Positions 49,864 to 63,223 of a stretch of DNA of 64,000 nt are shown here, piece after piece. Each line of letters begins with the position of its first letter. Position 1 is the stretch's first letter. Both the position numbers and the translations under genes were made by a program. The DNA is from Archangium gephyra. Its GTDB lineage: Bacteria; Myxococcota; Myxococcia; Myxococcales; Myxococcaceae. Under the pieces are notes generated by a model. The model did no database searches. It was given only the letters and a program-made list of their open reading frames with translations, and had not been told where the DNA came from. Location: NCBI RefSeq assembly GCF_001027285.1, contig NZ_CP011509.1, forward strand, positions 3,356,501-3,420,500. Reading direction: 5' to 3'.

Positions 49864-50030
49864 GGCCCGCGACGCTACCGGAGCCTCGTGCCGGGGTGGG
49901 GTCTGGAGTCCCCGGTGCGTGGACTCCCAGACGGGGAAGTGGGGACGGGAGACCCCAGGCGTCCGAGTCCTTTCGCGGGGTTGGCATCGGCCCTCGCCTT
50001 GCTCCTGTCCGGGGCGGGGAGGAAGAGCCG

Positions 50031-50777
50031 ATGCGAATCGACAGCGCGGGATGGACGCACGTGGGACGCCGCTCCCACAACGAGGATGCCTGGTTGGCCC
50101 GGGCGGACCTGGGCCTGTTCGTGGTGGCCGATGGGCTCGGCGGCTACGAGGGCGGTGAGGTGGCCAGCCGGTGCGTGGTGGAGGCCTTCTCCGGTTTCTG
50201 CGAGCGCGTGGCGAGGGACTCGGAGGCCACCTGGCCCCATCATCCGCGGCCGGGCCACTGCCGCGAGGAGGATCTGCTGCTCAACTGCACCGTGCTCGCC
50301 CAGAGGGCCGTGCTCTCGCGCCGCGTGGGACAGCTGCGCGAGATGGGCTCGACGGTGGTGGCGCTCGCCCTGGGGGCCAGGAGCGCGGCCGTGGCCCACG
50401 TGGGAGACAGCCGGCTCTACCGGCTGCGCGATGGACACCTGGAGTCGCTGACCCGCGACCACTCCCTCCTCGAGGAGATGCGGGAGGCCGGCGTCGAGAC
50501 GCCCGGGCGCGGCGAGAGTCCCTACGGGCATGTCATCACCCGCGCGCTGGGAACCCAGAACGCGGAGCCCACCGTGCGGCGGCTCGAGGTGCGGGCGGGG
50601 GATGTGTACCTGCTGTGCTCGGATGGGTTGTATGAGCCACTCGGGCCGGAGCGGCTCGCTTCACGGCTGGGGCAGGGGCGTGCGGTGGGCGTGGCGGAGG
50701 CCCTGGTGCGGGAGGCCTACGCCGCGGGCGGCCGGGACAACATCACGGCCATCGTGGTGGGCGTGGGCGCGAAGTAG
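50031..50777 (+). CDS. PP2C-type Ser/Thr protein phosphatase
   Basis: 248 residues from ATG 50031 with GGGGAGGAAG upstream. PP2C motifs are in order: GRRSHNEDAWL (E18/D19 metal ligands), VVADGLGGYEGG (D34), GSTVVALALG, AHVGDSRLYRLRDG, LTRDHS, LLCSDGLYEPL and GGRDNITAIVV. It removes phosphate from Ser/Thr using two Mn/Mg ions. The kinase gene 52149-53090 and an FHA-domain regulator lie beside it, so kinase, phosphatase and phospho-reader form a likely module. Confidence 0.95.
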   Translation: MRIDSAGWTHVGRRSHNEDAWLARADLGLFVVADGLGGYEGGEVASRCVVEAFSGFCERVARDSEATWPHHPRPGHCREEDLLLNCTVLAQRAVLSRRVGQLREMGSTVVALALGARSAAVAHVGDSRLYRLRDGHLESLTRDHSLLEEMREAGVETPGRGESPYGHVITRALGTQNAEPTVRRLEVRAGDVYLLCSDGLYEPLGPERLASRLGQGRAVGVAEALVREAYAAGGRDNITAIVVGVGAK

Positions 50778-50790
50778 GGGACACACGGTG

Positions 50791-52125
<1,335 letters not shown>

Positions 52126-52148
52126 GGTGCCGCGCTAGTCTAGGGCGG

Positions 52149-53090
52149 ATGAGGGAGTTGCCGCGACAGCTGGGCCCCTATCGCCTCGTGCGCCGGTTGG
52201 GCTCGGGGGGAATGGCCGAGGTGTTCCTCGCGCTGGCCTTCGGCGCCAGTGGCTTCGAGAAGCGCGTGGTGCTCAAGGTGCTGCGCCCCGAGCACGTGGG
52301 CAATCCCACCTACGAGCGCATGTTCCTCGAGGAGGGCCGGCTGGGGGCGAGGCTGAGCCACCGCAACCTCGTGGGCGTGCACGACCTGGGGTACGCGGAC
52401 GGCGCGTACTACGTGCGGCTGGACTACGTGGAGGGCGCGGACCTGGCGAGCCTCCTGGCGCGCGGACGTCCCGGGACGGCGCTGGCGCTCTTCGTGGCGG
52501 ATGAGCTCGCGCTGGCGCTCGCCGCGGTGCACGGGCTGGAGGACGAGGCGGGCCGGCCGCTCGGGCTGGTGCACCGGGACGTCACGCCGTCCAACGTGCT
52601 GCTGTCGCGGCTGGGCGAGGTGAAGCTGGCGGACTTCGGCATCGCCAAGGCCACGCTGCTGCGGGAGCAGACGCGGACCGGGGTGCGCAAGGGGACGTAC
52701 GCGTACATGTCTCCCGAGCAGGTGCGCGGTGGCGCGCTGGGCCCGGCGAGCGACCTTTTCTCCCTGGGCACCACGCTGCACGAGCTGCTCACCGGGCGCC
52801 GGCCCTTCGACGGGGAGACGCCCCTGGAGACGATGGAACGCATCCGCGAGGCGGACGTGGGGCCGCTCGCGGACGTGGAGGAGGACCTGCGGCCGGTGCT
52901 CCGGGCCTGTCTGGCACGGCGGCCGGAGGACAGACCGGGCTCGGCCGAGGTGCTGCGCCAGCTGCTCTCCCCGCTGCGCCGTGCGCGTGCCGAGGCCGGA
53001 CCTCCGGAGCTGGCCCGGTGGGTTCGGGAAGGGCAGGGGCAGGGCGGGGCGGGGGGCTCCACGAGCGGGACGGTGCTGGAAGACACGTGA
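52149..53090 (+). CDS. Ser/Thr protein kinase
   Basis: 313 residues from ATG 52149. The kinase fold is complete: GPYRLVRRLGSGGMAEVFLA (Gly loop), VVLKVLRPE (ATP Lys), GLVHRDVTPSNVLL (catalytic Asp), LADFGIAKA (Mg Asp), and KGTYAYMSPEQV as activation-loop end. Cytoplasmic, no transmembrane segment; the C-terminal tail is Gly/Ser rich. It is divergent from the FHA activator (24 bp between the starts), and the PP2C gene is on the far side. This makes it the natural kinase for FHA recognition. Confidence 0.95.
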   Translation: MRELPRQLGPYRLVRRLGSGGMAEVFLALAFGASGFEKRVVLKVLRPEHVGNPTYERMFLEEGRLGARLSHRNLVGVHDLGYADGAYYVRLDYVEGADLASLLARGRPGTALALFVADELALALAAVHGLEDEAGRPLGLVHRDVTPSNVLLSRLGEVKLADFGIAKATLLREQTRTGVRKGTYAYMSPEQVRGGALGPASDLFSLGTTLHELLTGRRPFDGETPLETMERIREADVGPLADVEEDLRPVLRACLARRPEDRPGSAEVLRQLLSPLRRARAEAGPPELARWVREGQGQGGAGGSTSGTVLEDT

Positions 53091-53122
53091 GGCCCGCTCT
53101 GGAGCGTCACCGCTGGCCCGGC

Positions 53123-53602
53123 TCAGTAGTCGTAGCGGGTATTGGCGTCGAGATCTCCGTAGAAGGAATAGGCGACCTTGTCATTTTCGACGTAGCCCTT
53201 GAAGTACTCGCCCCCCGCTCCCACCGGGCTCACGTACACGGAACCCTTGCACCCGGCGCAGGTGGGGTTGCCATTCTTGAACACGTCCCACTCCCCGGCG
53301 ACCTCATAGGAGTTGGTGGAGGTGGTGCGCACCAGCTTGAGCTCGAAGGTGTCGGCCTTGGTCTTCACCTGCACGTTGCCGAAGCTCTGGAGCGTGCCCT
53401 CCTGCCAGCTGAACGTCGCGTGGCTCGACGCCATCACGTGGCTGGTGTACTGCGGCAGGACGCGATCGACCTCCTCGAAGCCCTGGAGGGCCGAGGCCCT
53501 CACATTGTGGACCGGCAGCAGGTTGCTCCAGGCCAGGACAGGGATTGCCACCGTCAGGACCGCCAGGCCGTTGAAGACAGACTTGGGCATGTTGCTCAGC
53601 AT
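53123..53602 (-). CDS. Small secreted protein of unknown function
   Basis: 159 residues from ATG 53602 with an excellent site (GAGGAGAAACG). An N-terminal signal is likely (MLSNMPKSVFNGLAVLTVAI, then PVLAWS). The mature part is beta-rich with YTSHVMASSHATFSWQEGTL and a Cys pair (PTCAGCKG) that could form a disulfide. No family recognised. It is divergent from the STAND gene; the inverted repeat at 53742-53777 lies between the two starts. Confidence 0.75.
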   Translation of the reverse strand: MLSNMPKSVFNGLAVLTVAIPVLAWSNLLPVHNVRASALQGFEEVDRVLPQYTSHVMASSHATFSWQEGTLQSFGNVQVKTKADTFELKLVRTTSTNSYEVAGEWDVFKNGNPTCAGCKGSVYVSPVGAGGEYFKGYVENDKVAYSFYGDLDANTRYDY

Positions 53603-53741
53603 CGTTTCTCCTCGAGGTAGAGATGAGTGCCGGCGGGCCTTCCCCGCCGGCCGCGATGCCCTCAGCACCCGGCGTGCCAGGAGTTGAGTTCAGCCAAACC
53701 ACTGGAATCGCTGGACGCCTGCCTGCCTGCTCTCCGTGCGG

Positions 53742-53777
53742 TGACAAATCTGGACAGGGAGGTGACCAGATTTGTCA
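53742..53777. promoter_or_regulatory. Perfect 12-bp inverted repeat in the divergent promoter region
   Basis: TGACAAATCTGG (53742-53753) and CCAGATTTGTCA (53766-53777) are exact reverse complements, 12 bp apart. The site lies 70 bp before the ATG of the phosphorylase-STAND gene and 140 bp before the start of the minus-strand secreted protein gene. It could bind a dimeric regulator or form a stem in the mRNA. It is AT-richer than its surroundings. Confidence 0.65.
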
Positions 53778-53846
53778 GGAGCGCGCTCCTCGCGGTGCAC
53801 GGAGCTCCCGCTCGACTTCGCACCCGGAGCCGATACGCTCCCGGAC

Positions 53847-56800
53847 ATGTCCGCAGCCGGGGAGAGCTCGCGCGGGGTCCATGTGGTGATCCTGACCGCG
53901 ATAACGCTGGAGTACCGAGCCGCGAAGCAGGTGGAGGCCGGGGCCTGGCCTGGCAGTCGATGGGAGGAGCAGCGGAGCCCCCAGGGCCTTCCGGTGGTGT
54001 TCCGCACGTTCCAGGGGAAGGGAGGGCGGCCGCTCCGCGTGGCGATCGCTCAGGCGGGAGAGATGGGCGCGGTGGCGGCGACTAACGCGCTCCTGCCCCT
54101 GGTGGATGCCTACCGCCCCCAATGCGTGGCGATGTCTGGTGTCTGCGCGGGACGCCGAGGCAAGACGAACCTCGGTGACGTGGTCGCCGCTGAGCGGCTC
54201 TTCTTCCACGATGCCGGCAAGAAGCTCCCGGACGGGGTCCTGGGCGATCTCAAGACCTACAACCTTCGTGACGATTGGAAGGTGGCGCTCGAACAGTTCG
54301 ATTTCACCACGCGCTTTCGTGAGGAGCCCTGGTGGAAGACGCGCCCCGTGCCGTACGAGTGGCAGGAGAACTGGGTGCTGGCCCGGTTGCACGAGGGGGT
54401 TGCGGATCCCTCGGCCCTCCCCGAGTGCCAGGTGCTCTGCCCGAAGTGGGAGAGCGTCATCGACTCGCTCTGGAAGTCCGGCCACGTCCAGGACGGCATG
54501 CTCACGCTCACGGACGAGGGACGGAAGCGCATCGGCCGGCTGTTGATCCAACACCGCAACCGGCTCCCCGGCCTCTCTCCCTCGGGCGAGCTGCTTCCCT
54601 TCAAGGTCCATGTCGCGCCGATGGGGAGCGGCACCCAGGTCATCGAGGACGAGACGGTCTGGAGCTTCATCTCCGCCCCCATGCGCAAGACGCTGGGCCT
54701 GGAGATGGAGGCCGCGGCCCTTGGGATGCTGGCCCATGCCCAGCGGGAGCGGAAGCTCGACGCCCTGGTGCTCAAGGGGGTGATGGATTTCGCCGACGCG
54801 GGCCGCGACGACCACTTCAAGGAGTTCGCCGCCCGGGCTTCGGCCGAATGCCTGCTGGCCTTCCTTCGTGAGCACCTCGATGTGGAGGTGGTCCCCGGCA
54901 TCGACGACCTCCTGGTGCCGGGGACGGAGTGGGCCCTGCCGGAGGTTCCACCTCCATCGGCGCTCCTGCATGCACGCTATGAGGTCGTTCCCTTCCACGA
55001 GCGGGGGCGGGAGGCGATCCTCGCGGAGCTGGAGCGCTGGTGCGACGAGGGGCCACCCGTGGCGGGGCGGCTGCTCCATGCCGAAGGCGGGGTGGGCAAG
55101 ACCCGTCTCGCGATCGAGTGGACACGCCGCCGGCGGGCCGCGGGATGGGAGGCGGGTTTCCTGCCGAAGGACGTGCCCGGCGACTGGTTCGAGCGCTTGT
55201 GGATGCGCGGGCAGCCGGTGCTGGTGGTGATCGACTACGCCGAGAGCCGCACCGATTTGAGCGCCATCCTCTCGCGGGTGCATCGCTACTCCCAACAAGC
55301 GGGGGCGGGCGTGCTTCGCCGGATGCGCCTCTTGCTGCTCGCGCGCGGAGATGGCGACTGGTGGCAGTCTTTGCGGCAATCCGATACGTCCCTGGGGGCG
55401 TGGCTCGAAGTGACGCCTCCGCATGAACTGGCACCGCTGGCCGTGAGCGCGGCGGAGCGAGAGAAGGTCTTCCAGGAGGCCGCGGAGAAGTTCGCCGAGA
55501 AGCGAGGGAAGCGGTACGTGCCGCGAGCCCTGGTCCCGTTCACCGATGAGCGCTTCGCGCGGGTGCTCTACCTGCACATGGCGGCGCTTGCCTCCGTCGA
55601 GGAGCTCGCCTTCGAGGCGAACACGCTGCTGGACGTCATCCTCGATCATGAGGAGCACTTTTGGGCAGCCCACGCTCAGCAGGGGGATCTGGTGCTCGCA
55701 CGTCAGCGGTCGTTGGCCCGCCAGGTGATTGCCGCCGCCACCTTGCGGGGAGGGTTTGCCAGCGCCTCCGAGCTCTCCCTCGTCACGAGGAGGCTCCTCG
55801 GCCGTTCGCTCTCCGCGAGCGAGGAGGAATTGCTCCTGCTGCTTCAACGGATCTACCAGGGCACGGGTGGGGACTCCGCCGTGTACCTTCCCGCCCTGGA
55901 GCCGGACCTCCTCGGTGAGGGCATGGTCCTCCGGGTTGCTTCGCCGAAGCTCCAGGCGGACCGACCTCCGACCGACTGGATCGACCGGGTGTTCCCTCCC
56001 GACGAGCAGACGCTGGCCGTGGGCGCCGGGCTGGGGGTGCTTGGCCGTGCATCCGCCTCACGGCCGGACGTGGTACGGCCATGGATCGAGCGGCTCCTCG
56101 CCGGTCCACTCCATTCGCGTGCGGTCCTCGCGCTGGAGGCCGCGAAGGCCGTTGGACTTCGGACCGAGCTTTCGGTGCTCGGCGATGCATTGGCCGATCG
56201 GCTCGAAGCAGAGGGGGACGTCAGGCTCGCATTCAAACTGGGGACTGCCACGATTCCCATGACCGTATCGTTGAGTCGGGTTGCCGAGTGGACGACGCGC
56301 ACGCTCGTGCAAGCGCTACCGGCATCGGGGGATGTGCGGCTACTTACCAGCCGGGCAGGCCTTCTGGGTGGCCGAGGCCGGACATTGACGAATCTGGGCC
56401 GTTACGAGGAGGCACTCAAGGTCACGCGCGAGGCTGTCGGGATCCGCCGGACGCTGGCGGAGAGCGACCCCGCTGCATTCCAGGCTGACCTCGCCGAGAG
56501 CCTCAACGACCTGGGCAATGCGTTGCTCGGGCTGGGCCGTCATGAGGAGGCGCTCGCTGCGGCGCGCGAGGCCGTCGAGCTGCTTCGTCCGCTGGCACAA
56601 CGCGATCCTTATGCGTTCCAGGGCCACCTCGCTGCGAGTCTGGGCAATATGGGCAATATGTTGGGCGAGCTGGGCCGATATGAGGAGGCGCTTGCCGCCA
56701 TACAAGACGCCGTCGAATTCATGAGACCCCTGGCGCAGCGTGACCCCGACACCTTCCGGTCCAGTCTTGCCATGGGCCTCAATAACCTCGGCACAGCGTT

Positions 56801-57980
56801 GGGCACGCTGGGCCGTACTGGCGAGGCGCTCGCTGCCATGGAAGAGGCCGTCAGGCTCTATCGCCCCCTGGCGCAGCACAACCCCGATGCCTACCGGCCA
56901 GATCTGGCCAGGAGCCTCTCCAATATCGGTGCCTTGTTGGACGAGGACCACCGGCATGACGAGGCACTCTCCGCCGTGGAAGAGGCTGTCGGGCTCTACC
57001 GGCCCCTGGCGGAACGCAACCCTGAAGCCTTCGGCTCTGGCCTCTCCTCGAGCCTCAACAACCTGGGCAGCAGGTTGAGCAAGCTGGGACGTCATGAGGA
57101 GGCGCTTGAGGCTGTTCGTGAGGCCATCGCGATCCGCCGCACCCTGGCGCACAGCAACCCCGCTGCCTTCCAGCCGGACCTCGCCCAGAGCCTCTACAAC
57201 CAGGGGCACGGACTGAGGGTGCTGGGCCGTCATGAGGAGGCACTTCCGGCCATTCGCGAGGCTATCGGGCTCCTTCGCCCCTTGGCTGAGCGCCACCCGG
57301 ATGCCTTTCAAGACCACCTCGCCCAGGTGCTTGGCTCCTTGGCCACCTCACTCACCGCGCTGGGCCGCGATGAAGAAGCGTTGAAGGCCTTGCACGAAAC
57401 CGTCGTGCTCTACCGCTCCCTGATGCAGCGCAAACCCGACGCCTTCCAAGGCAAGCTCATCCAGAGCCTCTCGGAACTGGGTCTCAAGTTGGAGGCGTTG
57501 GGCCGCTCCGAGGAGTCGCTCGTGACCCTGGAAGAGGCCATGATGATTCTATCGCCTCTGGTGCGGCGCGGTTCCGATGATTTCTGGCCCACGTTCGCCG
57601 AGCAGTTGAGCAACTTGAGCACGGCGCTGAGCAGCCAGGGACGTCATGAGGGCGCACTCCCCCTCATGGAAGAGGCCATCCAGCTCTATCGGCCTCTGGC
57701 CCAGCGCGACCCCGATACCTTCCAGCCCGAGCTTGCCGTGAATCTCGGCGGCCTGGGCACCGCGTTGAGCAAGCTGGGCCGTCATGATGAGGCACTCGCC
57801 GCCACGGAAGAGGCATTGGATGCGCTCTGGCCCTTCTTCGAACGTCGCCCGTCCGACTTCGCCCAGCGCACCGCGGTCCTGATCGTCCAACTCCTGGACC
57901 TTTATACTTCCCTCGCGCGCGCTCCTGTTCCGTCCTTTCAGGAGCGCCTCGTCACCTTCAAGCGCCTCATGGAGGCTTGA
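53847..57980 (+). CDS. PNP/UDP-phosphorylase - STAND NTPase - TPR protein (NLR-like)
   Basis: 1377 residues from ATG 53847 (a TTG start at 53772 is possible). Part 1 (about 10-345): nucleoside-phosphorylase fold with VVILTAITLEYRA, GVCAGRRGKTNLGDVVAA and LEMEAAALGMLAH, LKGVMDFADAGRDDHF. Part 2 (about 375-720): P-loop NTPase with Walker A AEGGVGKTRLA (~411-421), Walker B VLVVIDYAESR and sensor LLLLARGDGDW, of STAND type. Part 3 (about 845-1350): eleven 48-residue TPRs (GRHEEALxAxREAVxLxRPL). In this layout TPRs sense, the NTPase oligomerises and the phosphorylase acts. PNP domains of the Detocs type, also found in some CBASS and Avs systems, degrade ATP. I infer an antiviral or self-recognition protein. 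Confidence 0.88.
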   Translation: MSAAGESSRGVHVVILTAITLEYRAAKQVEAGAWPGSRWEEQRSPQGLPVVFRTFQGKGGRPLRVAIAQAGEMGAVAATNALLPLVDAYRPQCVAMSGVCAGRRGKTNLGDVVAAERLFFHDAGKKLPDGVLGDLKTYNLRDDWKVALEQFDFTTRFREEPWWKTRPVPYEWQENWVLARLHEGVADPSALPECQVLCPKWESVIDSLWKSGHVQDGMLTLTDEGRKRIGRLLIQHRNRLPGLSPSGELLPFKVHVAPMGSGTQVIEDETVWSFISAPMRKTLGLEMEAAALGMLAHAQRERKLDALVLKGVMDFADAGRDDHFKEFAARASAECLLAFLREHLDVEVVPGIDDLLVPGTEWALPEVPPPSALLHARYEVVPFHERGREAILAELERWCDEGPPVAGRLLHAEGGVGKTRLAIEWTRRRRAAGWEAGFLPKDVPGDWFERLWMRGQPVLVVIDYAESRTDLSAILSRVHRYSQQAGAGVLRRMRLLLLARGDGDWWQSLRQSDTSLGAWLEVTPPHELAPLAVSAAEREKVFQEAAEKFAEKRGKRYVPRALVPFTDERFARVLYLHMAALASVEELAFEANTLLDVILDHEEHFWAAHAQQGDLVLARQRSLARQVIAAATLRGGFASASELSLVTRRLLGRSLSASEEELLLLLQRIYQGTGGDSAVYLPALEPDLLGEGMVLRVASPKLQADRPPTDWIDRVFPPDEQTLAVGAGLGVLGRASASRPDVVRPWIERLLAGPLHSRAVLALEAAKAVGLRTELSVLGDALADRLEAEGDVRLAFKLGTATIPMTVSLSRVAEWTTRTLVQALPASGDVRLLTSRAGLLGGRGRTLTNLGRYEEALKVTREAVGIRRTLAESDPAAFQADLAESLNDLGNALLGLGRHEEALAAAREAVELLRPLAQRDPYAFQGHLAASLGNMGNMLGELGRYEEALAAIQDAVEFMRPLAQRDPDTFRSSLAMGLNNLGTALGTLGRTGEALAAMEEAVRLYRPLAQHNPDAYRPDLARSLSNIGALLDEDHRHDEALSAVEEAVGLYRPLAERNPEAFGSGLSSSLNNLGSRLSKLGRHEEALEAVREAIAIRRTLAHSNPAAFQPDLAQSLYNQGHGLRVLGRHEEALPAIREAIGLLRPLAERHPDAFQDHLAQVLGSLATSLTALGRDEEALKALHETVVLYRSLMQRKPDAFQGKLIQSLSELGLKLEALGRSEESLVTLEEAMMILSPLVRRGSDDFWPTFAEQLSNLSTALSSQGRHEGALPLMEEAIQLYRPLAQRDPDTFQPELAVNLGGLGTALSKLGRHDEALAATEEALDALWPFFERRPSDFAQRTAVLIVQLLDLYTSLARAPVPSFQERLVTFKRLMEA

Positions 57981-58008
57981 CCCGGCCAGGCCAGCGAGAG
58001 GGGGGCCC

Positions 58009-59022
58009 TCACGCCACCCGGATGACGACCTTGCCGAAGTGCGCCCCGCTCTTGAGGTGCTCGAAGGCGGCGCGCGTCTCGGCGAACGGGAAGACGCGGT
58101 CCACCACCGGACGCACCCCGTGCAGCGTCAGCGCGCGGTTGAGCGCCTCGAAGGACTGACGGTGGCCCACGAAGGTGCCCTGCACGCGCAGGTTGCCCAT
58201 GAGGATGGGGGTGAGCGGCATGGCCCCCGCGCCACCACTGAGCACGCCGATGACGGACACCGTGCCCCCGAGCCGCACCGCTCGCAGGGACTTCTCGAAG
58301 GTGCCGGCGCCACCCACCTCGACGACGTGGTCCACGCCGGTGCCACCGGTGAGGGTGCGCGCCGTCTTGTCCCAGTCCGGGGTCGTCACGTAGTTGATGC
58401 CCTCGTGGGCGCCCAGCGCGCGGGCCCGCTCCAGCTTGTCGTCCCGGCTGGAGGTGAGGATGACGCGCGCCCCCATCATCCGGGCGATCTGCAGCGCGAA
58501 GATGGAGACGCCTCCGGTGCCCTGCAGCAGCACGGTGTCACCCGCCTTGAGCCCGCCCTGGGTGACGAGCGCGCTCCACGCGGTGACGGCCGCGCACGGC
58601 AGCGTGGAGGCCTCCTCGTCCGTCAGGTGCGCGGGTGTGGGGATGGCGCCGTCCTCGGAGAGCAGCATCGTGTCCGCGAGCGCTCCATCGAGCGGTCCGC
58701 CCAGCGTGGTGCCCTGCACCTGGCGCGAGGGCTCTCCGGCGAGCCACGCCTGCGCGAAGAGGCCCATCACCCGGTCCCCGGCCTTCACACGGGTGACGCC
58801 CGGTCCCACCGCGTCCACCACGCCCGCCCCATCCGAGTTGGGCACGAGCGGCAGCTTCTGCCGCGGGTTGTAGCGGCCCTCCACCATCATCAGGTCGCGG
58901 TAGTTGAGGCTCGTGGCCTTCACCCGCACCCGCACCTGCATGGGCCCCGGCACGGGGTCCGGCCTCTCGGCGTACACCAGATTCTCCAACCCGAATCCGC
59001 CTCGAATCTCGTAGACCTTCAT
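58009..59022 (-). CDS. Zinc-free medium-chain dehydrogenase (quinone-oxidoreductase-like)
   Basis: 337 residues of the MDR superfamily. The N-terminus has VRVKATSLNYRDLMMVEGRY, where zinc-type alcohol dehydrogenases have a Cys, so no catalytic zinc is expected. VVDAVGPGVTRVKAGDRVMG, the NADPH site LLQGTGGVSIFALQIARMMG and YVTTPDW follow, as in quinone oxidoreductase-like enzymes. It probably reduces quinones or enones with NADPH. It stops 29 bp from the STAND gene stop (convergent) and starts 95 bp before the caspase-like lipoprotein gene (divergent). Confidence 0.93.
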   Translation of the reverse strand: MKVYEIRGGFGLENLVYAERPDPVPGPMQVRVRVKATSLNYRDLMMVEGRYNPRQKLPLVPNSDGAGVVDAVGPGVTRVKAGDRVMGLFAQAWLAGEPSRQVQGTTLGGPLDGALADTMLLSEDGAIPTPAHLTDEEASTLPCAAVTAWSALVTQGGLKAGDTVLLQGTGGVSIFALQIARMMGARVILTSSRDDKLERARALGAHEGINYVTTPDWDKTARTLTGGTGVDHVVEVGGAGTFEKSLRAVRLGGTVSVIGVLSGGAGAMPLTPILMGNLRVQGTFVGHRQSFEALNRALTLHGVRPVVDRVFPFAETRAAFEHLKSGAHFGKVVIRVA

Positions 59023-59116
59023 GGGGCCGGGGTTCTAGCGCGCCTCATGCTTCGCGGAGAACGGTTTCGCCGGTGGGGGGCGGAAGCGTTGGATTCGCTG
59101 CGGTAGACTCCCGGGC

Positions 59117-60484
59117 ATGTCGCGCGGATTCTGGGCCCGGAGTGGTGTGGTGGTGCTGCTGTGGATGGGGGTGCAGGGGTGCGCCCGTGTTCCCGTCTCC
59201 GAGGAGGCGGATGTGGACGGGCTCGCCGACTGGCCCGAGCCCGCTCCCGAGCACGAGAAGGACATCGAGTCCCCCGAGCACGTGCCGCCCTTCGAGCCGC
59301 TCCGCGCTCCTCCCCGTGCCGCCAACCTCCTGGTGCTGGGCGGCGGCGGTGAGCCCTCCAGCAATGAGATCGCCCTGGAGAAGAATGTCCGCTACTTCCA
59401 GCGGACGCTCGAGGCGCAGGGACTCGCGCCCGCTTCCGCCACCGTCTATTTCGCCAATGGGAATGATGGGCAGGCCACGGTGCGCTACCTCGGGGAGAAG
59501 GCCGGGAAGAAGGCGCGCGAGCAGTTCAAGGTCCCGGAGATTCCCCACCTGAAGGGACCAGCCACGCTGGAGCGCTTCCTGGAGTGGGTGGACCAGAGCG
59601 CTCGCGAGACGCCCCATCAGCCGGCCTTCATCTACTTCACGGGGCACGGAGGCTTGAACGGCCGGCACCGCAACAACAACCACCTGGCGCTCTGGGAGGG
59701 GGACACGCTGACGGTGCGAGCCTTTGGCCTCTTCCTCAACCGGCTCCCGCGCACCACGCCCGTGGTCACGGTGATGTCCCAGTGCTACGCTGGCTCGTTC
59801 GCCAACTTCATCTACCAGGACGCCAATCCCAAGCGGCCGGTGGTGGCGCAGCCCCGCTGTGGCTTCTTCGCCACCGTGGACTTCCTGCCCTCGGTGGGCT
59901 GCACACCGGAGGTGGATGAGGCGGACTACAAGGATTACAGCTCCAGCTTCTTCGCGGGCCTCAGCGGGCTGGGCCGGACGGGGAAGGCGGTGGCCTCGGC
60001 CGACTATGACAAGGATGGCCGGGTGAGCTACGCGGAGGCCCACGCGTTCGCCAAGGTGGATGGCGAGACCACGGACCTGCCCATCTCCACCTCGGAGGCC
60101 TGGTTGCAGCGGCGCGCCACCCGGAAGGACCGGCGCCGCTTCCTGTCCTCGCCCATCATGCAAGTGCTGCGCGGCGGGCGCCCGGATCAGCGGCATGTCG
60201 TGGAGTCGCTCGTGGGCAAGCTGGGCTTCCTCCCCGAACTGTCCGTGCGCGACAACCTGAAGACAGCCATGCCTCGCACGGAGGAGGCCGTGGCCTATGT
60301 CGAGCGCCTCTACATGGAGCTGATCAACATCGGCATGCAGGAGAAGCTCCGTGCCTCGGGCTCGCCCCAGGCGCTCGCCATCTTCGATCGCCTGCTCCAG
60401 TGCGAGAACGGCTCCTGGGACAGGCCGCCGGGCGCGGCGCCGGTGCGGGTGGAAGCTCCCGAGGCGGCAGCGACGGCCCCGTGA
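59117..60484 (+). CDS. Exported caspase-like (C13/C14-fold) lipoprotein
   Basis: 455 residues from ATG 59117. The lipoprotein signal is VVVLLWMGVQGC (C22), then a Glu/Pro-rich linker to about 65. The protease-like fold shows AANLLVLGGGGEPSSNE (strand 1), AFIYFTGHGGLNG with H177, and VVTVMSQCYAGSF with C223. This His-Gly and Gln-Cys-x-x-Gly/Ser pair is the catalytic dyad of caspase/legumain-type cysteine peptidases. An EF-hand-like loop DYDKDGRVSYAE (D296-E307) could bind calcium. The ~150 C-terminal residues are helical with no family match. It lies between the STAND gene and a toxin-immunity pair; substrate unknown. Confidence 0.82.
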   Translation: MSRGFWARSGVVVLLWMGVQGCARVPVSEEADVDGLADWPEPAPEHEKDIESPEHVPPFEPLRAPPRAANLLVLGGGGEPSSNEIALEKNVRYFQRTLEAQGLAPASATVYFANGNDGQATVRYLGEKAGKKAREQFKVPEIPHLKGPATLERFLEWVDQSARETPHQPAFIYFTGHGGLNGRHRNNNHLALWEGDTLTVRAFGLFLNRLPRTTPVVTVMSQCYAGSFANFIYQDANPKRPVVAQPRCGFFATVDFLPSVGCTPEVDEADYKDYSSSFFAGLSGLGRTGKAVASADYDKDGRVSYAEAHAFAKVDGETTDLPISTSEAWLQRRATRKDRRRFLSSPIMQVLRGGRPDQRHVVESLVGKLGFLPELSVRDNLKTAMPRTEEAVAYVERLYMELINIGMQEKLRASGSPQALAIFDRLLQCENGSWDRPPGAAPVRVEAPEAAATAP

Positions 60485-60526
60485 GTTCGCGGCCCGCTCC
60501 GATGCTGCCGTGGTCGTCGACTGTAG

Positions 60527-60901
60527 CTAATAAGGGGGGTTGAAGGTTCCTGCCTTCCATTGCTCCAGCGTTCTCTCGGCGGAGAAACCCACCAGCCCGT
60601 CAACGTGCGCGGCGATGTCTGTCAGCACCCGCTCCCCCTCGGCGGGTGCGAACTGCAACACTGATCCCGCGACCCAGCAACGGGTTCCCGGGTCTGGATC
60701 ATCGAGTAGCTTCAACATCTGGCGCTGCGCCTCTATGCCTCTTGCTTTGAGTTCCCTTTCGATCGCCACGAGGAGATCATACATGCGATTTGCCTCTCTT
60801 GGTTTACCAGCGTAGATGGCGGGCCATCTTTCGGCGGAAAGGGTTCTGATTTTTTCGACCAACTCTTCCGTTGGGAGTTTCTTGAGCTGTGTCTTTTTCA
60901 T
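60527..60901 (-). CDS. DUF2019-like immunity protein
   Basis: 124 residues from ATG 60901, which overlaps the toxin's TGA (ATGA at 60898-60901), so the two are translationally coupled. The pattern LPTEELVEKIRTLSAERW, ANRMYDLLVAIERELKARG, RQMLKLLDDPDP and ERVLTDIAAHVDG ending TLEQWKAGTF matches DUF2019, a small helical family often behind toxins. It presumably binds and blocks the HNH-like toxin domain. The longer frame to 60976 is read inside the toxin and has no start signal. GC is lower here than in the carrier part of the toxin. Confidence 0.82.
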   Translation of the reverse strand: MKKTQLKKLPTEELVEKIRTLSAERWPAIYAGKPREANRMYDLLVAIERELKARGIEAQRQMLKLLDDPDPGTRCWVAGSVLQFAPAEGERVLTDIAAHVDGLVGFSAERTLEQWKAGTFNPPY

Positions 60902-62307
60902 GGAATGACTCCAAAGCGTTTCAGAACCACCATCCCGAAAGCGCGCTGCTCTTCGTAAGATTTTGTGCGGAGCCACTCGCGCACCACCATGCCCTCCGTG
61001 TCACGGGACTTGGTCGAGTAGTATGCGCTTATCGCGTCATGTCTGCTTTTGTTTATGGCAATTACATTTTCCGTATTGTGAAGAGCTTCCGCGCCGAAGC
61101 GCTCGACGTTGGGTTTGCGCTGTTCGACGATGTGATGCCATGCCTTGTCCTCACCCGCGGGGCCCATGGCATTCTTGAATGCGTCAAAGGACTTGAATGC
61201 GCGGTGCCTGCTCGGAAGATGCTTTTCCCCGTCGGGTGGTACACCCCTCGCGTTCGAGGAACTCTCGCCCCCACCATTTGGGGCCGTCATGGCCACAGCG
61301 GTCATCGGCAGCACGGCCCGAAGCGTGCCCTCGTTCACCGAGACGATGAGCCGCTCGGCTCCAGTCGCCGCATCCATCAGACGCAGGCCTGTGTTCAGCT
61401 CGACCGTGCGTGAAGCCTGCCCCAGGCCCGGCAGATTCGGCCCCCTTGGCATGTGTGCCGCCGTCTGGCCTATCGCCGCCGTCGCCACCATGACGAGAAC
61501 TCGTACACTGTTGGGGCCGATCACTCTTCCGAAACTCTCACCTATCTCTCGAAGCTCCGCGAAGGTGGCGGCTCGTGGAGCAGCGTCGTAAAGACGCGCA
61601 TAGGCTCGTAGCAGGTCGAAAAACTCCCACCCGAGATAGCCCCACATGAGCACGGAAAACACCGTGGCCGCGCCCTTGGTCACTGGCTCTGGTGCGAGCA
61701 AGAGCGCCATGTATGCGGTAATGGTGAAGCTGAGAGTCGCCAGCACCTGTGTGGGGTCGAGCATGGCCCGTACTTCCGCATCCACTCCGTCCAGGGCGGG
61801 CCCTACCGCCAGGGCGAGCGCGATGCTGCGGTTGTCATCGGCCTGCAGGCGGGGCCCATCCTCGAACAGCGACAGGCAGTCGCCCGGAGTGCCGCACCGC
61901 TCACAGAACTGCCCGTAGGACCGCGCCAGGTCTGATTGGCACATGTCGCCACGCCATGGCGTGGAGGCCCATGCCAACCTACGGCCGGCATACGGAGAGA
62001 CGCGGGACGTGGCCACTCGCGGCGGCAGGTGGAGCCAGAGTGTGGTCAGAGCCTCCTTGATTTCGGAGTCGCTCACCTGCACCGGCGCGAAGTCCGTGGG
62101 CAGTGCGGTGAAAATGGCTTCCACCCGGCCCTTGTCGCCGGTTCCTGAATCCATCGCCCATGTTTCGGGCGCGCCCCAGGGCGGAGGGGTGGGGTGACCG
62201 TGCGTCGTCAGCGCTCCACCCGTGGGCGCCCCCGTTGCGCAGGCTGTCACCAGCATCAATGCCACCAGCGCCAGTGCACCCACTCGCATGGGCCGCCGCG
62301 TGCCCAT
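60898..62307 (-). CDS. SitA-like polymorphic lipoprotein toxin with HNH/EndoVII-like C-terminus
   Basis: 469 residues from ATG 62307 (ATG 62289 is an alternative). The lipoprotein signal is RVGALALVALMLVTAC (C23). The carrier part (CERCGTPGDCLSLF, APEPVTKG, ATFAELREIGESFGRV, ATAAIGQTA, LPGLGQA) aligns with the toxin ending at 10357. The last ~100 residues are unrelated to that one: AWHHIVEQRKPNVERFG, LHNTENVIAINKSRHDAIS and VREWLRTKSYEEQRAFG, a pattern of HNH/EndoVII-type nuclease toxins with HH and late His. By the SitA model it is passed by outer-membrane exchange and kills cells without the matching immunity. The immunity gene overlaps its stop. Confidence 0.85.
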   Translation of the reverse strand: MGTRRPMRVGALALVALMLVTACATGAPTGGALTTHGHPTPPPWGAPETWAMDSGTGDKGRVEAIFTALPTDFAPVQVSDSEIKEALTTLWLHLPPRVATSRVSPYAGRRLAWASTPWRGDMCQSDLARSYGQFCERCGTPGDCLSLFEDGPRLQADDNRSIALALAVGPALDGVDAEVRAMLDPTQVLATLSFTITAYMALLLAPEPVTKGAATVFSVLMWGYLGWEFFDLLRAYARLYDAAPRAATFAELREIGESFGRVIGPNSVRVLVMVATAAIGQTAAHMPRGPNLPGLGQASRTVELNTGLRLMDAATGAERLIVSVNEGTLRAVLPMTAVAMTAPNGGGESSSNARGVPPDGEKHLPSRHRAFKSFDAFKNAMGPAGEDKAWHHIVEQRKPNVERFGAEALHNTENVIAINKSRHDAISAYYSTKSRDTEGMVVREWLRTKSYEEQRAFGMVVLKRFGVIP

Positions 62308-62337
62308 GGGGCGTGAATCGACACGATATCTGCACAT

Positions 62338-62370
62338 CCCTCACCCCAACCCTCTCCCAGGGGAGAGGGA
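62338..62370. repeat. Dispersed GC-rich palindromic repeat, copy 2
   Basis: CCCTCACCCCAACCCTCTCCC followed by AGGGGAGAGGGA. Same family as 1536-1578 (reverse orientation), lacking the CCGGAGGGCGAGG segment. It lies between the toxin gene start and the SDR gene. Confidence 0.65.
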
Positions 62371-62403
62371 GCATTCACAGGCGGGAACCCGGGGGACTCG
62401 ATA

Positions 62404-62440
62404 CCCTCACCCCGTCCCTCTCCCGGAGGGCGAGGGGAGA
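62404..62440. repeat. Dispersed GC-rich palindromic repeat, copy 3
   Basis: CCCTCACCCCGTCCCTCTCC then CGGAGGGCGAGGGGA. It is the closest match to the reverse complement of 1536-1578, and sits 33 bp from copy 2. Confidence 0.65.
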
Positions 62441-62461
62441 TTGGGGACAGTGGGGAGACTG

Positions 62462-63223
62462 TTAGCCCGCCTCGCCTCCGTCGATGTTGTAGGCCGCCCC
62501 CGTGATGGTCGCCGCCGCGTCCGAGCTCAGGAACACGCACAGCGCCGCCACTTCCTCCGGCTGGATCACCCGCCCCATCGCGTTCATGTTCGCCAACGCC
62601 GCGTGCGCCTCCTGCTCGCTCCGGCCCGTGCTCTTCGAGATCGCCGCCTTCGCGTTCGTGAGCATGTCCGTCTCCACCCAGCCCGGATTCACGATGTTCA
62701 CCGTCACGTTCTTGCGCGCCCACTCCGCCGCCAAGGACTTCGTCAGCCCCAGCAGCGCGTGCTTCGACGCACAGTACGCCGACGTGTATTTCACCCCCCT
62801 CGTCGCCGCCATGCTCCCGATGTTGATCACCCGGCCCCCTCCCGCCGCCGCCATCGCCGGAATCAACTCCCGGCAGAACAGGAACGGCGCCTCCACGTTC
62901 ACCTTCATCACCCGCCGGTAGTCCTCCGTCGTCGTCTTGTGCAGCGGCGCCGATACCGAAATCCCCGCGTTGTTCACCAGCACCCGCGGCGTCCCCCCCT
63001 CCAATATCCGCTTGCTCGCCGCCAGCACCGCCCCCTCGTCCGCCACGTCCACCGCCAGCGGCTTCACCGCTCCTCCCGACTCGCGCGCCAGCTCCTCCAG
63101 CGCCTCCGCCGCTCGCGCCAGCGCCCACACCTGGTAGCCCTCCTTCACGTACGCCTGCACCAGCGCCTTGCCGATTCCCCGGCTCGCTCCCGTCACCACT
63201 GCCGTCTTCTGGGTCGTCGTCAT
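62462..63223 (-). CDS. Short-chain dehydrogenase/reductase
   Basis: 253 residues from ATG 63223 (MTTTQKTAVVTGASRGIGK); the frame upstream is unrelated antisense sequence of the next gene. Cofactor motif TGASRGIG, structural NNAGISV, catalytic Ser in INIGSMAAT and YCASK (Tyr/Lys) are all present. The end GAAYNIDGG is typical of classical SDRs such as acetoacetyl-CoA or 3-oxoacyl-ACP reductases. It is divergent from an acyl-CoA dehydrogenase gene, 88 bp between the starts, which hints at a common acyl-CoA pathway. Confidence 0.95.
   Translation of the reverse strand: MTTTQKTAVVTGASRGIGKALVQAYVKEGYQVWALARAAEALEELARESGGAVKPLAVDVADEGAVLAASKRILEGGTPRVLVNNAGISVSAPLHKTTTEDYRRVMKVNVEAPFLFCRELIPAMAAAGGGRVINIGSMAATRGVKYTSAYCASKHALLGLTKSLAAEWARKNVTVNIVNPGWVETDMLTNAKAAISKSTGRSEQEAHAALANMNAMGRVIQPEEVAALCVFLSSDAAATITGAAYNIDGGEAG

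Follow-up and report, generated by a model that had tools for sequence, protein, structure and literature searches.

Within a 64,000-nucleotide stretch of the Archangium gephyra genome (hereafter the window; contig NZ_CP011509.1, positions 3,356,501 to 3,420,500, in a host genome that forms one contig of 12,489,432 bases), a single gene encodes a 1377-residue protein that most likely acts as a cell-suicide device against viruses, of a type already known in outline. We interpret it, with a probability of about 0.6, as a stand-alone NLR-type abortive-infection sensor-executioner, whose nucleoside-phosphorylase-superfamily (PNP) domain would hydrolyse (d)ATP-like nucleotides. The gene is one open frame on the plus strand, from ATG to stop, and contains all four motifs quoted in a preliminary description of this DNA; that description's picture of one protein with nucleoside-phosphorylase, STAND and TPR parts is borne out by the open frame, Pfam matches, folds and motifs. 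With an effector, a central STAND NTPase and C-terminal superstructure-forming repeats on one chain, the protein has the layout of an NLR-type STAND conflict protein, and this three-part pattern lies far beyond chance (TPR_10 matches at E 4.1e-42, and the relatives share the same order of parts). We favour the NLR-type sensor reading because the STAND part resembles EfAvs5, MalT, NLRP9, ORC/Cdc6, NRC2 and NLRC4 in fold, the catalytic and Walker residues are intact and invariant, no partner gene accompanies the gene, a related genome has an empty site, third-codon-position GC content (GC3) is lowered, modules are swapped among relatives, TPR number varies, the predicted concave TPR face has an elevated proportion of nonsynonymous change (pN), and PADLOC profiles match. 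Folds, intact residues, the solitary context, the empty site, swapped effectors and fast-evolving TPRs also give good support to the earlier idea that this gene acts alone. The features are as follows (MTA/SAH, methylthioadenosine/S-adenosylhomocysteine).

53847..57980, plus strand: gene of the 1377-residue PNP-STAND-TPR protein (open frame; 17 more full-length relatives)
53874..54881, plus strand: N-terminal PNP/MTA-SAH-nucleosidase-like effector domain, residues ~10-345 (Pfam PF01048, AlphaFold2, Foldseek, VIA-align, alignment, profile spacing)
54969..56366, plus strand: STAND NTPase, residues ~375-840 (AlphaFold2, EfAvs5 as top match, nSTAND_NTPase5 in relatives, alignments)
56394..57911, plus strand: eleven 46-residue TPRs, residues 850-1355, the likely sensor (lag self-identity, copy alignment, Pfam TPR families)
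53777..58003, no strand: stretch missing at the equivalent site of the congener G043, where the flanks abut (4227 bases: the gene, 70 bases before it and 23 after)

Both profile score and predicted fold place the N-terminal part in the PNP superfamily. PNP_UDP_1 (PF01048) matches at E 5.1e-8, with 33.0 bits against a gathering score of 25.1 and its best stretch over residues 14-127, and an AlphaFold2 model of residues 1-350, built from nine sequences, has a mean predicted local distance difference test score (pLDDT) of 78, falling below 50 at residues 1-7, 121-136, 245-249 and 262-281. MTA/SAH nucleosidases top the Foldseek list for this model (best E 1.2e-10), and one is also the best VIA-align match (Z 20.6 over 218 residues, root-mean-square deviation (rmsd) 3.7). 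The preliminary description had staked its reading on residues 10-345 matching nucleoside phosphorylases in structure, and neither search refuted this; the nearest solved enzymes are, however, mostly hydrolytic nucleosidases, not phosphorylases. Across an alignment of 18 sequences (the window protein and its 17 full-length relatives), E22, E288, K310 and D314 do not vary, and M287 is conserved in all but one. A sequence-profile search aligns D314 and the EMEA motif with those of solved MTA/SAH nucleosidases; from our reading of the sequences, we take E22 and D314 to be the counterparts of two residues in the E. coli enzyme, Glu12 and Asp197, mutants of which appear in the Foldseek list (1z5n and 1z5o, by their titles).

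The PNP part also carries a helical insert (window 54270-54600, residues ~142-250). Compared with the PADLOC PNP profiles it amounts to about 70 extra residues, within residues ~137-250: in the matched stretches, those profiles have ~40-52 positions between the domain halves, versus ~115 residues in the window protein and its relatives. The insert recurs in relatives built on other switches (L063, L064) and is absent from a planctomycete relative (L080); by eye it has a winged-helix-like look, with the motif LTxEGRxRI. Three PADLOC profiles match the window protein at E ≤1, namely PDC-M60C (2.9e-33), 'Effector, PN-superfamily' (6.8e-23) and TPR, where PDC presumably stands for phage defence candidate.

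The central part carries a predicted STAND-type P-loop NTPase, a statement that rests on modelled fold and motifs together. Walker A (GGVGKTR, residues 414-420), Walker B (VVIDYAE, 460-466) and a sensor (LLLAR, 496-500) are followed by a helical region; G414, G415, G417, K418, T419, D463, E466 and R500 are invariant in all 18 aligned sequences, and their equivalents are kept in 16 of 16 in a second alignment. One of the 18 (L060) has DSAE in place of DYAE. The Walker A, Walker B and sensor arginine of NLR-type STAND proteins are therefore intact, and the loss of nucleotide-binding residues that the preliminary description had named as fatal to its reading is not seen. An AlphaFold2 model of residues 351-849 (16 sequences) reached a mean pLDDT of 87.6 and a predicted template-modelling score (pTM) of 0.89. 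Foldseek matched it best to the SIR2-STAND protein EfAvs5 (E 7.4e-6), with SAMD9, MalT, ORC/Cdc6 and NLRP9 among the next rows, and VIA-align likewise placed EfAvs5 first (Z 13.8, 191 residues, rmsd 3.7). Since ORC/Cdc6, Sec18, NRC2 and NLRC4 follow within about 1 Z unit, the model clearly has a STAND/AAA+ fold but cannot be assigned to an exact clade; a family's absence from these fold lists excludes nothing. No Pfam STAND model matches the window's own protein. Among the 16 STAND segments, 12 match nSTAND_NTPase5 (PF25199, gathering score 34) at E ≤1, the best at 4.1e-9, the window segment not being one of them; in nine relatives scanned whole, L087 exceeds the cut-off with 34.5 bits. Neither NACHT nor NB-ARC is among the 16 Pfam families that these 16 segments match (E ≤1), and PADLOC returned weak mad8, Cas3fv and DrmC matches, each in one or two of the 16.

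The C-terminal part is the fastest changing of the three. The preliminary description had counted eleven TPRs, which stands, and had taken them for near-identical copies of 48 residues, which does not: self-identity is 0.468 at lag 46 versus 0.038 at lag 48, the eleven copies are 26-63% identical in pairs (mean 46%), and Tandem Repeats Finder reported no DNA array of score at least 50; these results rule out both the 48-residue period and near-identity. PHROGs gave two weak matches to the window protein, both in the TPR part. Counting partial copies, the 18 proteins have between 6 and 14 TPRs. Among eight pairs of relatives, the TPR part has the lowest protein identity in seven (in L049/L051 the STAND part is marginally lower), every pair has TPR gaps close to 46 residues or a multiple of that (45-48, 92, 184), and the ratio of nonsynonymous to synonymous divergence (dN/dS) is above that of both other parts in seven, L044/L045 being the exception. 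The pairs L053/L054 and L047/L048 are syntenic orthologs, and in these two we compared pN with its synonymous counterpart (pS). At repeat positions 35, 38, 42, 45 and 46, which we take to be the canonical ligand-facing TPR positions 2, 5, 9, 12 and 13, pN is 0.268 and pS 0.203, versus 0.080 and 0.176 at the other TPR positions, and 316 of 20,000 random five-position sets reach a pN of 0.268, for a concave set settled on once the per-position counts were known. Positions 9, 12, 16 and 20, also variable over the long term, give pN 0.068 and pS 0.196. These counts favour relaxed or diversifying change on the predicted ligand face, positive selection not being proven. Synonymous divergence differs among the parts of one pair (in L044/L045, for example, 0.21, 0.47 and 0.69), which suggests recombination inside the gene.

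The gene is accessory, as its uninterrupted empty site and patchy occurrence show. In the congener G043, matches to window 49892-53776 and 58004-60486 abut with zero bases between them, so 53777-58003 is missing there. A second congener, G045, has its own copy on a different contig (70,972 bases) and lacks the gene at this site, where flanks 52132-53099 and 58008-60487 lie ten bases apart. The flanks are apart in G044 and G047 and only the right one was found in G046, which makes those congeners uninformative on the empty site. G046 retains the PNP part alone (L061 7226-9115, plus strand), at 74% identity, and the unrelated tail behind it looks non-coding by eye: a remnant, decayed copy. GC3 is 0.81 in the gene, compared with 0.87-0.95 in the eight neighbours measured. 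No mobile-element signature is visible at the ends of the insert, the junction sequences having neither target duplication nor terminal repeats by eye. Separately, a perfect inverted repeat at window 53743-53776, with arms of 11 bases around a 12-base spacer, reaches exactly to the insertion point, and in its G043 version a change in one arm is matched in the other. A single occurrence in the genome rules it out as a dispersed target; it is perhaps an operator of the minus-strand frame 53126-53668.

An order-wide protein search returned a match of any kind at E ≤0.001 in 34 of 145 genomes. Profile searching of 195 genomes of the phylum gave matches in 23 at E ≤1e-30, and 18 copies in 14 genomes were full-length over PNP and STAND. 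By our own count these 18 loci lie in about 14 neighbourhoods, with no constant partner gene. This comparison covered frames of at least 100 residues in flanks of mostly ~7 kb per side (~1 kb upstream for L057); multi-gene flank runs are common only to L047/L048 and to L053-L056, a handful of single protein families are each found in two neighbourhoods, and a kinase cluster alone links more than two. Myxobacteria have very many Ser/Thr kinases of that type. The cluster, in which the window's Ser/Thr kinase falls, is not a constant neighbour: it covers five loci only, at 28-37% identity among the five pairs shown. On plasmids, 84 records match the window protein, 61 of them from Streptomyces, and Rhizobium plasmids match too; among the 20 plasmid matches listed, 14 begin at query residues 366-386, 6 are TPR-only and 0 extend over the PNP part.

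Relatives of the individual parts, scanned in two sets (nine with the STAND core but lacking the PNP head; six in which BLAST found the PNP part), show modules that swap in both directions, other heads standing on the STAND core and other switches behind the PNP. A recognisable other head is present in six of the nine, and TPRs by Pfam in eight (not in L084). The replacement heads are Trypsin_2 (L066), GT4-conflict (L070), EAD5 (L083), TIR/SEFIR (L085), DUF4062 (L086) and HD-CE (L087), with no head domain named by the scan in L079, L082 and L084. DUF4062 is reported to be a TIR-like NADase family in antiphage defence (PMC13174449). On the PNP side, the domain is joined to NPHP3_N with a NACHT match slightly below cut-off (L064), to NB-ARC and TPRs (L065), and, among the matches listed, to a NACHT-associated domain and WD40 (L067) and to WD40 (L068). 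A 661-residue frame in G043 (L063 8451-10433, minus strand) has a TIR domain behind the PNP and matches no STAND model, and may be an adaptor form or an effector with two enzymes; the sixth PNP carrier is the remnant L061. From these domain compositions, the exchange of effectors and sensors involves known conflict modules.

We envision that, at rest, the STAND module would hold a nucleotide and keep the protein inactive. An invader-derived protein, most likely from a phage, would be bound by the concave face of the eleven-TPR solenoid, whereupon the NTPase would swap its nucleotide and oligomerise as Avs and NLR proteins do. Brought together in this way, the PNP domains would gain nucleosidase activity and cleave a common adenine nucleotide, most likely (d)ATP, at its N-glycosidic bond, and through such depletion the cell would stop growing or die before the invader multiplies, which would make the gene anti-phage in effect. 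The proposed chemistry has precedents: PNP domains of CBASS, Detocs, pAgo, DRT8 and NLR-like effectors are linked to (d)ATP degradation or cell death (PMC10952713), PNP_UDP immune modules hydrolyse ATP (PMC12881547), and PNPase fusions are known in bacterial conflict systems (PMC7159879, PMC8195603).

Several points weigh against this interpretation. The solved enzymes nearest to the PNP part use MTA/SAH and similar compounds rather than ATP, so that (d)ATP as the substrate is something we infer. A sequence-profile search with the STAND part against solved chains found no convincing relative, the best being a designed protein at E 0.0079. In the TPR array, the concave set was chosen post hoc; position 18, outside it, has the highest single pN (0.71); concave-face omega is uneven, at 0.56 for L053/L054 and 5.42 for L047/L048, the latter from only 1.5 synonymous changes; and in a three-pair pool it is 1.11, with a bootstrap range of 0.60-2.06. 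The neighbourhood in the window (kinase, sigma-54 regulator, PP2C, zinc dehydrogenase) is not a defence island. A scan of viral contigs with two short STAND peptide patterns gave 17 pattern matches, none of them a relative, and on that scan a phage-borne origin was set aside. Finally, the direction of change, gain in the window lineage versus loss in G043 and G045, is not proven.

The rival explanations keep the same architecture and give it another purpose. Archangium is a genus of social bacteria, and the protein could serve kin or non-self recognition with programmed death in myxobacterial swarms, not phage defence, the TPRs sensing a polymorphic self or non-self protein and the PNP domain killing, as in fungal heterokaryon-incompatibility NLRs. 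Repeat-number variation and patchy presence suit allorecognition as well as they suit defence, and similar architectures do serve fungal allorecognition (PMC4986451, PMC12881547). We nevertheless consider this unlikely: myxobacterial swarming cannot account for the STAND core with other effectors in Planctomycetes, Acidobacteria and further bacteria, or for its presence on plasmids of Streptomyces and Rhizobium.

Two further rivals concern what the PNP domain makes. It might free a base that acts as second messenger for separate effectors, as proposed for the PNPase domains of VMAP ternary systems, a role predicted for domains of the nucleoside-phosphorylase superfamily (PMC7159879). Against this, 18 copies in about 14 contexts have no constant partner gene, and the place of PNP is filled in relatives by trypsin, TIR, DUF4062 and other effector-type domains, which leaves this rival distinctly improbable. 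The nearest folds would also suit a metabolic or regulatory MTA/SAH nucleosidase under NTPase control. That the gene is accessory and patchy, and that housekeeping needs no sensor-like repeat array, make such a role highly improbable, and a housekeeping enzyme proper is ruled out by the NCBIfam MTA/SAH nucleosidase equivalog, which scores 46.3 bits, below its cut-off of 169.

Returning to the NLR-type sensor, its relation to known systems can be drawn part by part. With Avs proteins such as the SIR2-STAND Avs5, it shares a STAND fold (EfAvs5 being the top structural match) and an N-terminal enzyme on the same chain, and it differs in having PNP where Avs5 has SIR2; PADLOC-DB includes Avs models, none of which is among the three PADLOC matches. 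In Detocs a histidine kinase, a receiver and a PNP effector, encoded by three genes, form a relay, and CBASS has a CD-NTase cyclase gene adjoining its effector. Both memberships are ruled out: no receiver or histidine kinase was found in the window protein (Pfam, E ≤1) or the eight neighbours, no CD-NTase among the eight neighbours scanned, and no constant partner across contexts. PNP (Cap17) effectors of bacterial NLR-like systems were reportedly described by Rousset et al. in 2023. Those systems, compared here by effector only, have in common with the window protein a PF01048 effector domain, theirs degrading (d)ATP, as Detocs also has a PNP effector in common with it (PMC10952713); the window PNP has the ~70 residues noted above beyond the PADLOC profiles. 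The preliminary description knew of no described system with this order of parts. Fungal PNP_UDP-NACHT-TPR NLRs, tabulated in PMC4986451, have an identical order of effector, STAND switch and TPR sensor and also repeat-length polymorphism, and bacterial NLR-like PNP effectors are listed in PMC10952713, so the kind is known and not new. The window protein differs from the fungal class in being bacterial, in having STAND segments that lack NACHT or NB-ARC Pfam matches in all 16 cases, the class being one of NACHT or NB-ARC proteins, and in a TPR length of 46 residues, versus mostly 42 in fungal NLRs (PMC4986451). In the literature searched, mostly open-access and in part, we found no description of a bacterial PNP-STAND-TPR protein of exactly this kind.

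The surroundings of the gene hold further observations. The eight neighbours scanned with Pfam comprise a Ser/Thr kinase, an FHA-sigma54 regulator, a PP2C, a zinc dehydrogenase, a DUF2019 protein and three without a match. The DUF2019 gene (60527-60976, minus strand; PF09450, E 1.3e-6) lies beside a lipoprotein-like gene without a Pfam match (60898-62337, minus strand), and by eye the two look like a toxin-immunity pair; window 60487-62465 is missing in G043 (flanks 30 bases apart) and 60488-62332 in G045 (flanks 5 apart). A predicted lipoprotein at 59117-60481, also without a Pfam match, has caspase-like GHGG and SQCYAGS motifs by eye.

Taken together, our analysis adds to what is described a bacterial one-gene PNP-STAND(nSTAND5-like)-TPR form, an empty site, two-way module exchange and fast-changing predicted ligand-face positions. 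In build the protein resembles plant, animal and fungal immune sensors, with a front end predicted to cut nucleotides, a molecular switch and a repeat sensor that changes quickly. Much more tentatively, and as a joint proposal that we think may well not hold as a whole, it could be one receptor of a combinatorial myxobacterial repertoire reminiscent of plant R genes: members of a dispersed family would trade enzyme heads, STAND cores and TPR sensors from locus to locus, whole-repeat gain and loss and diversifying selection on the TPR concave face would yield new specificities, and the helical insert of the PNP subfamily would make a nucleotide the substrate in place of MTA/SAH. Whether repeat gain or loss alters NLR-type recognition can be asked directly with the ortholog pairs L053/L054 and L047/L048, whose repeat arrays differ. 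If the sensor-executioner reading is right, this would be a compact one-gene system whose trigger, switch and executioner are all open to testing by point mutation, and would give the fungal PNP-NACHT-TPR receptors a bacterial counterpart.

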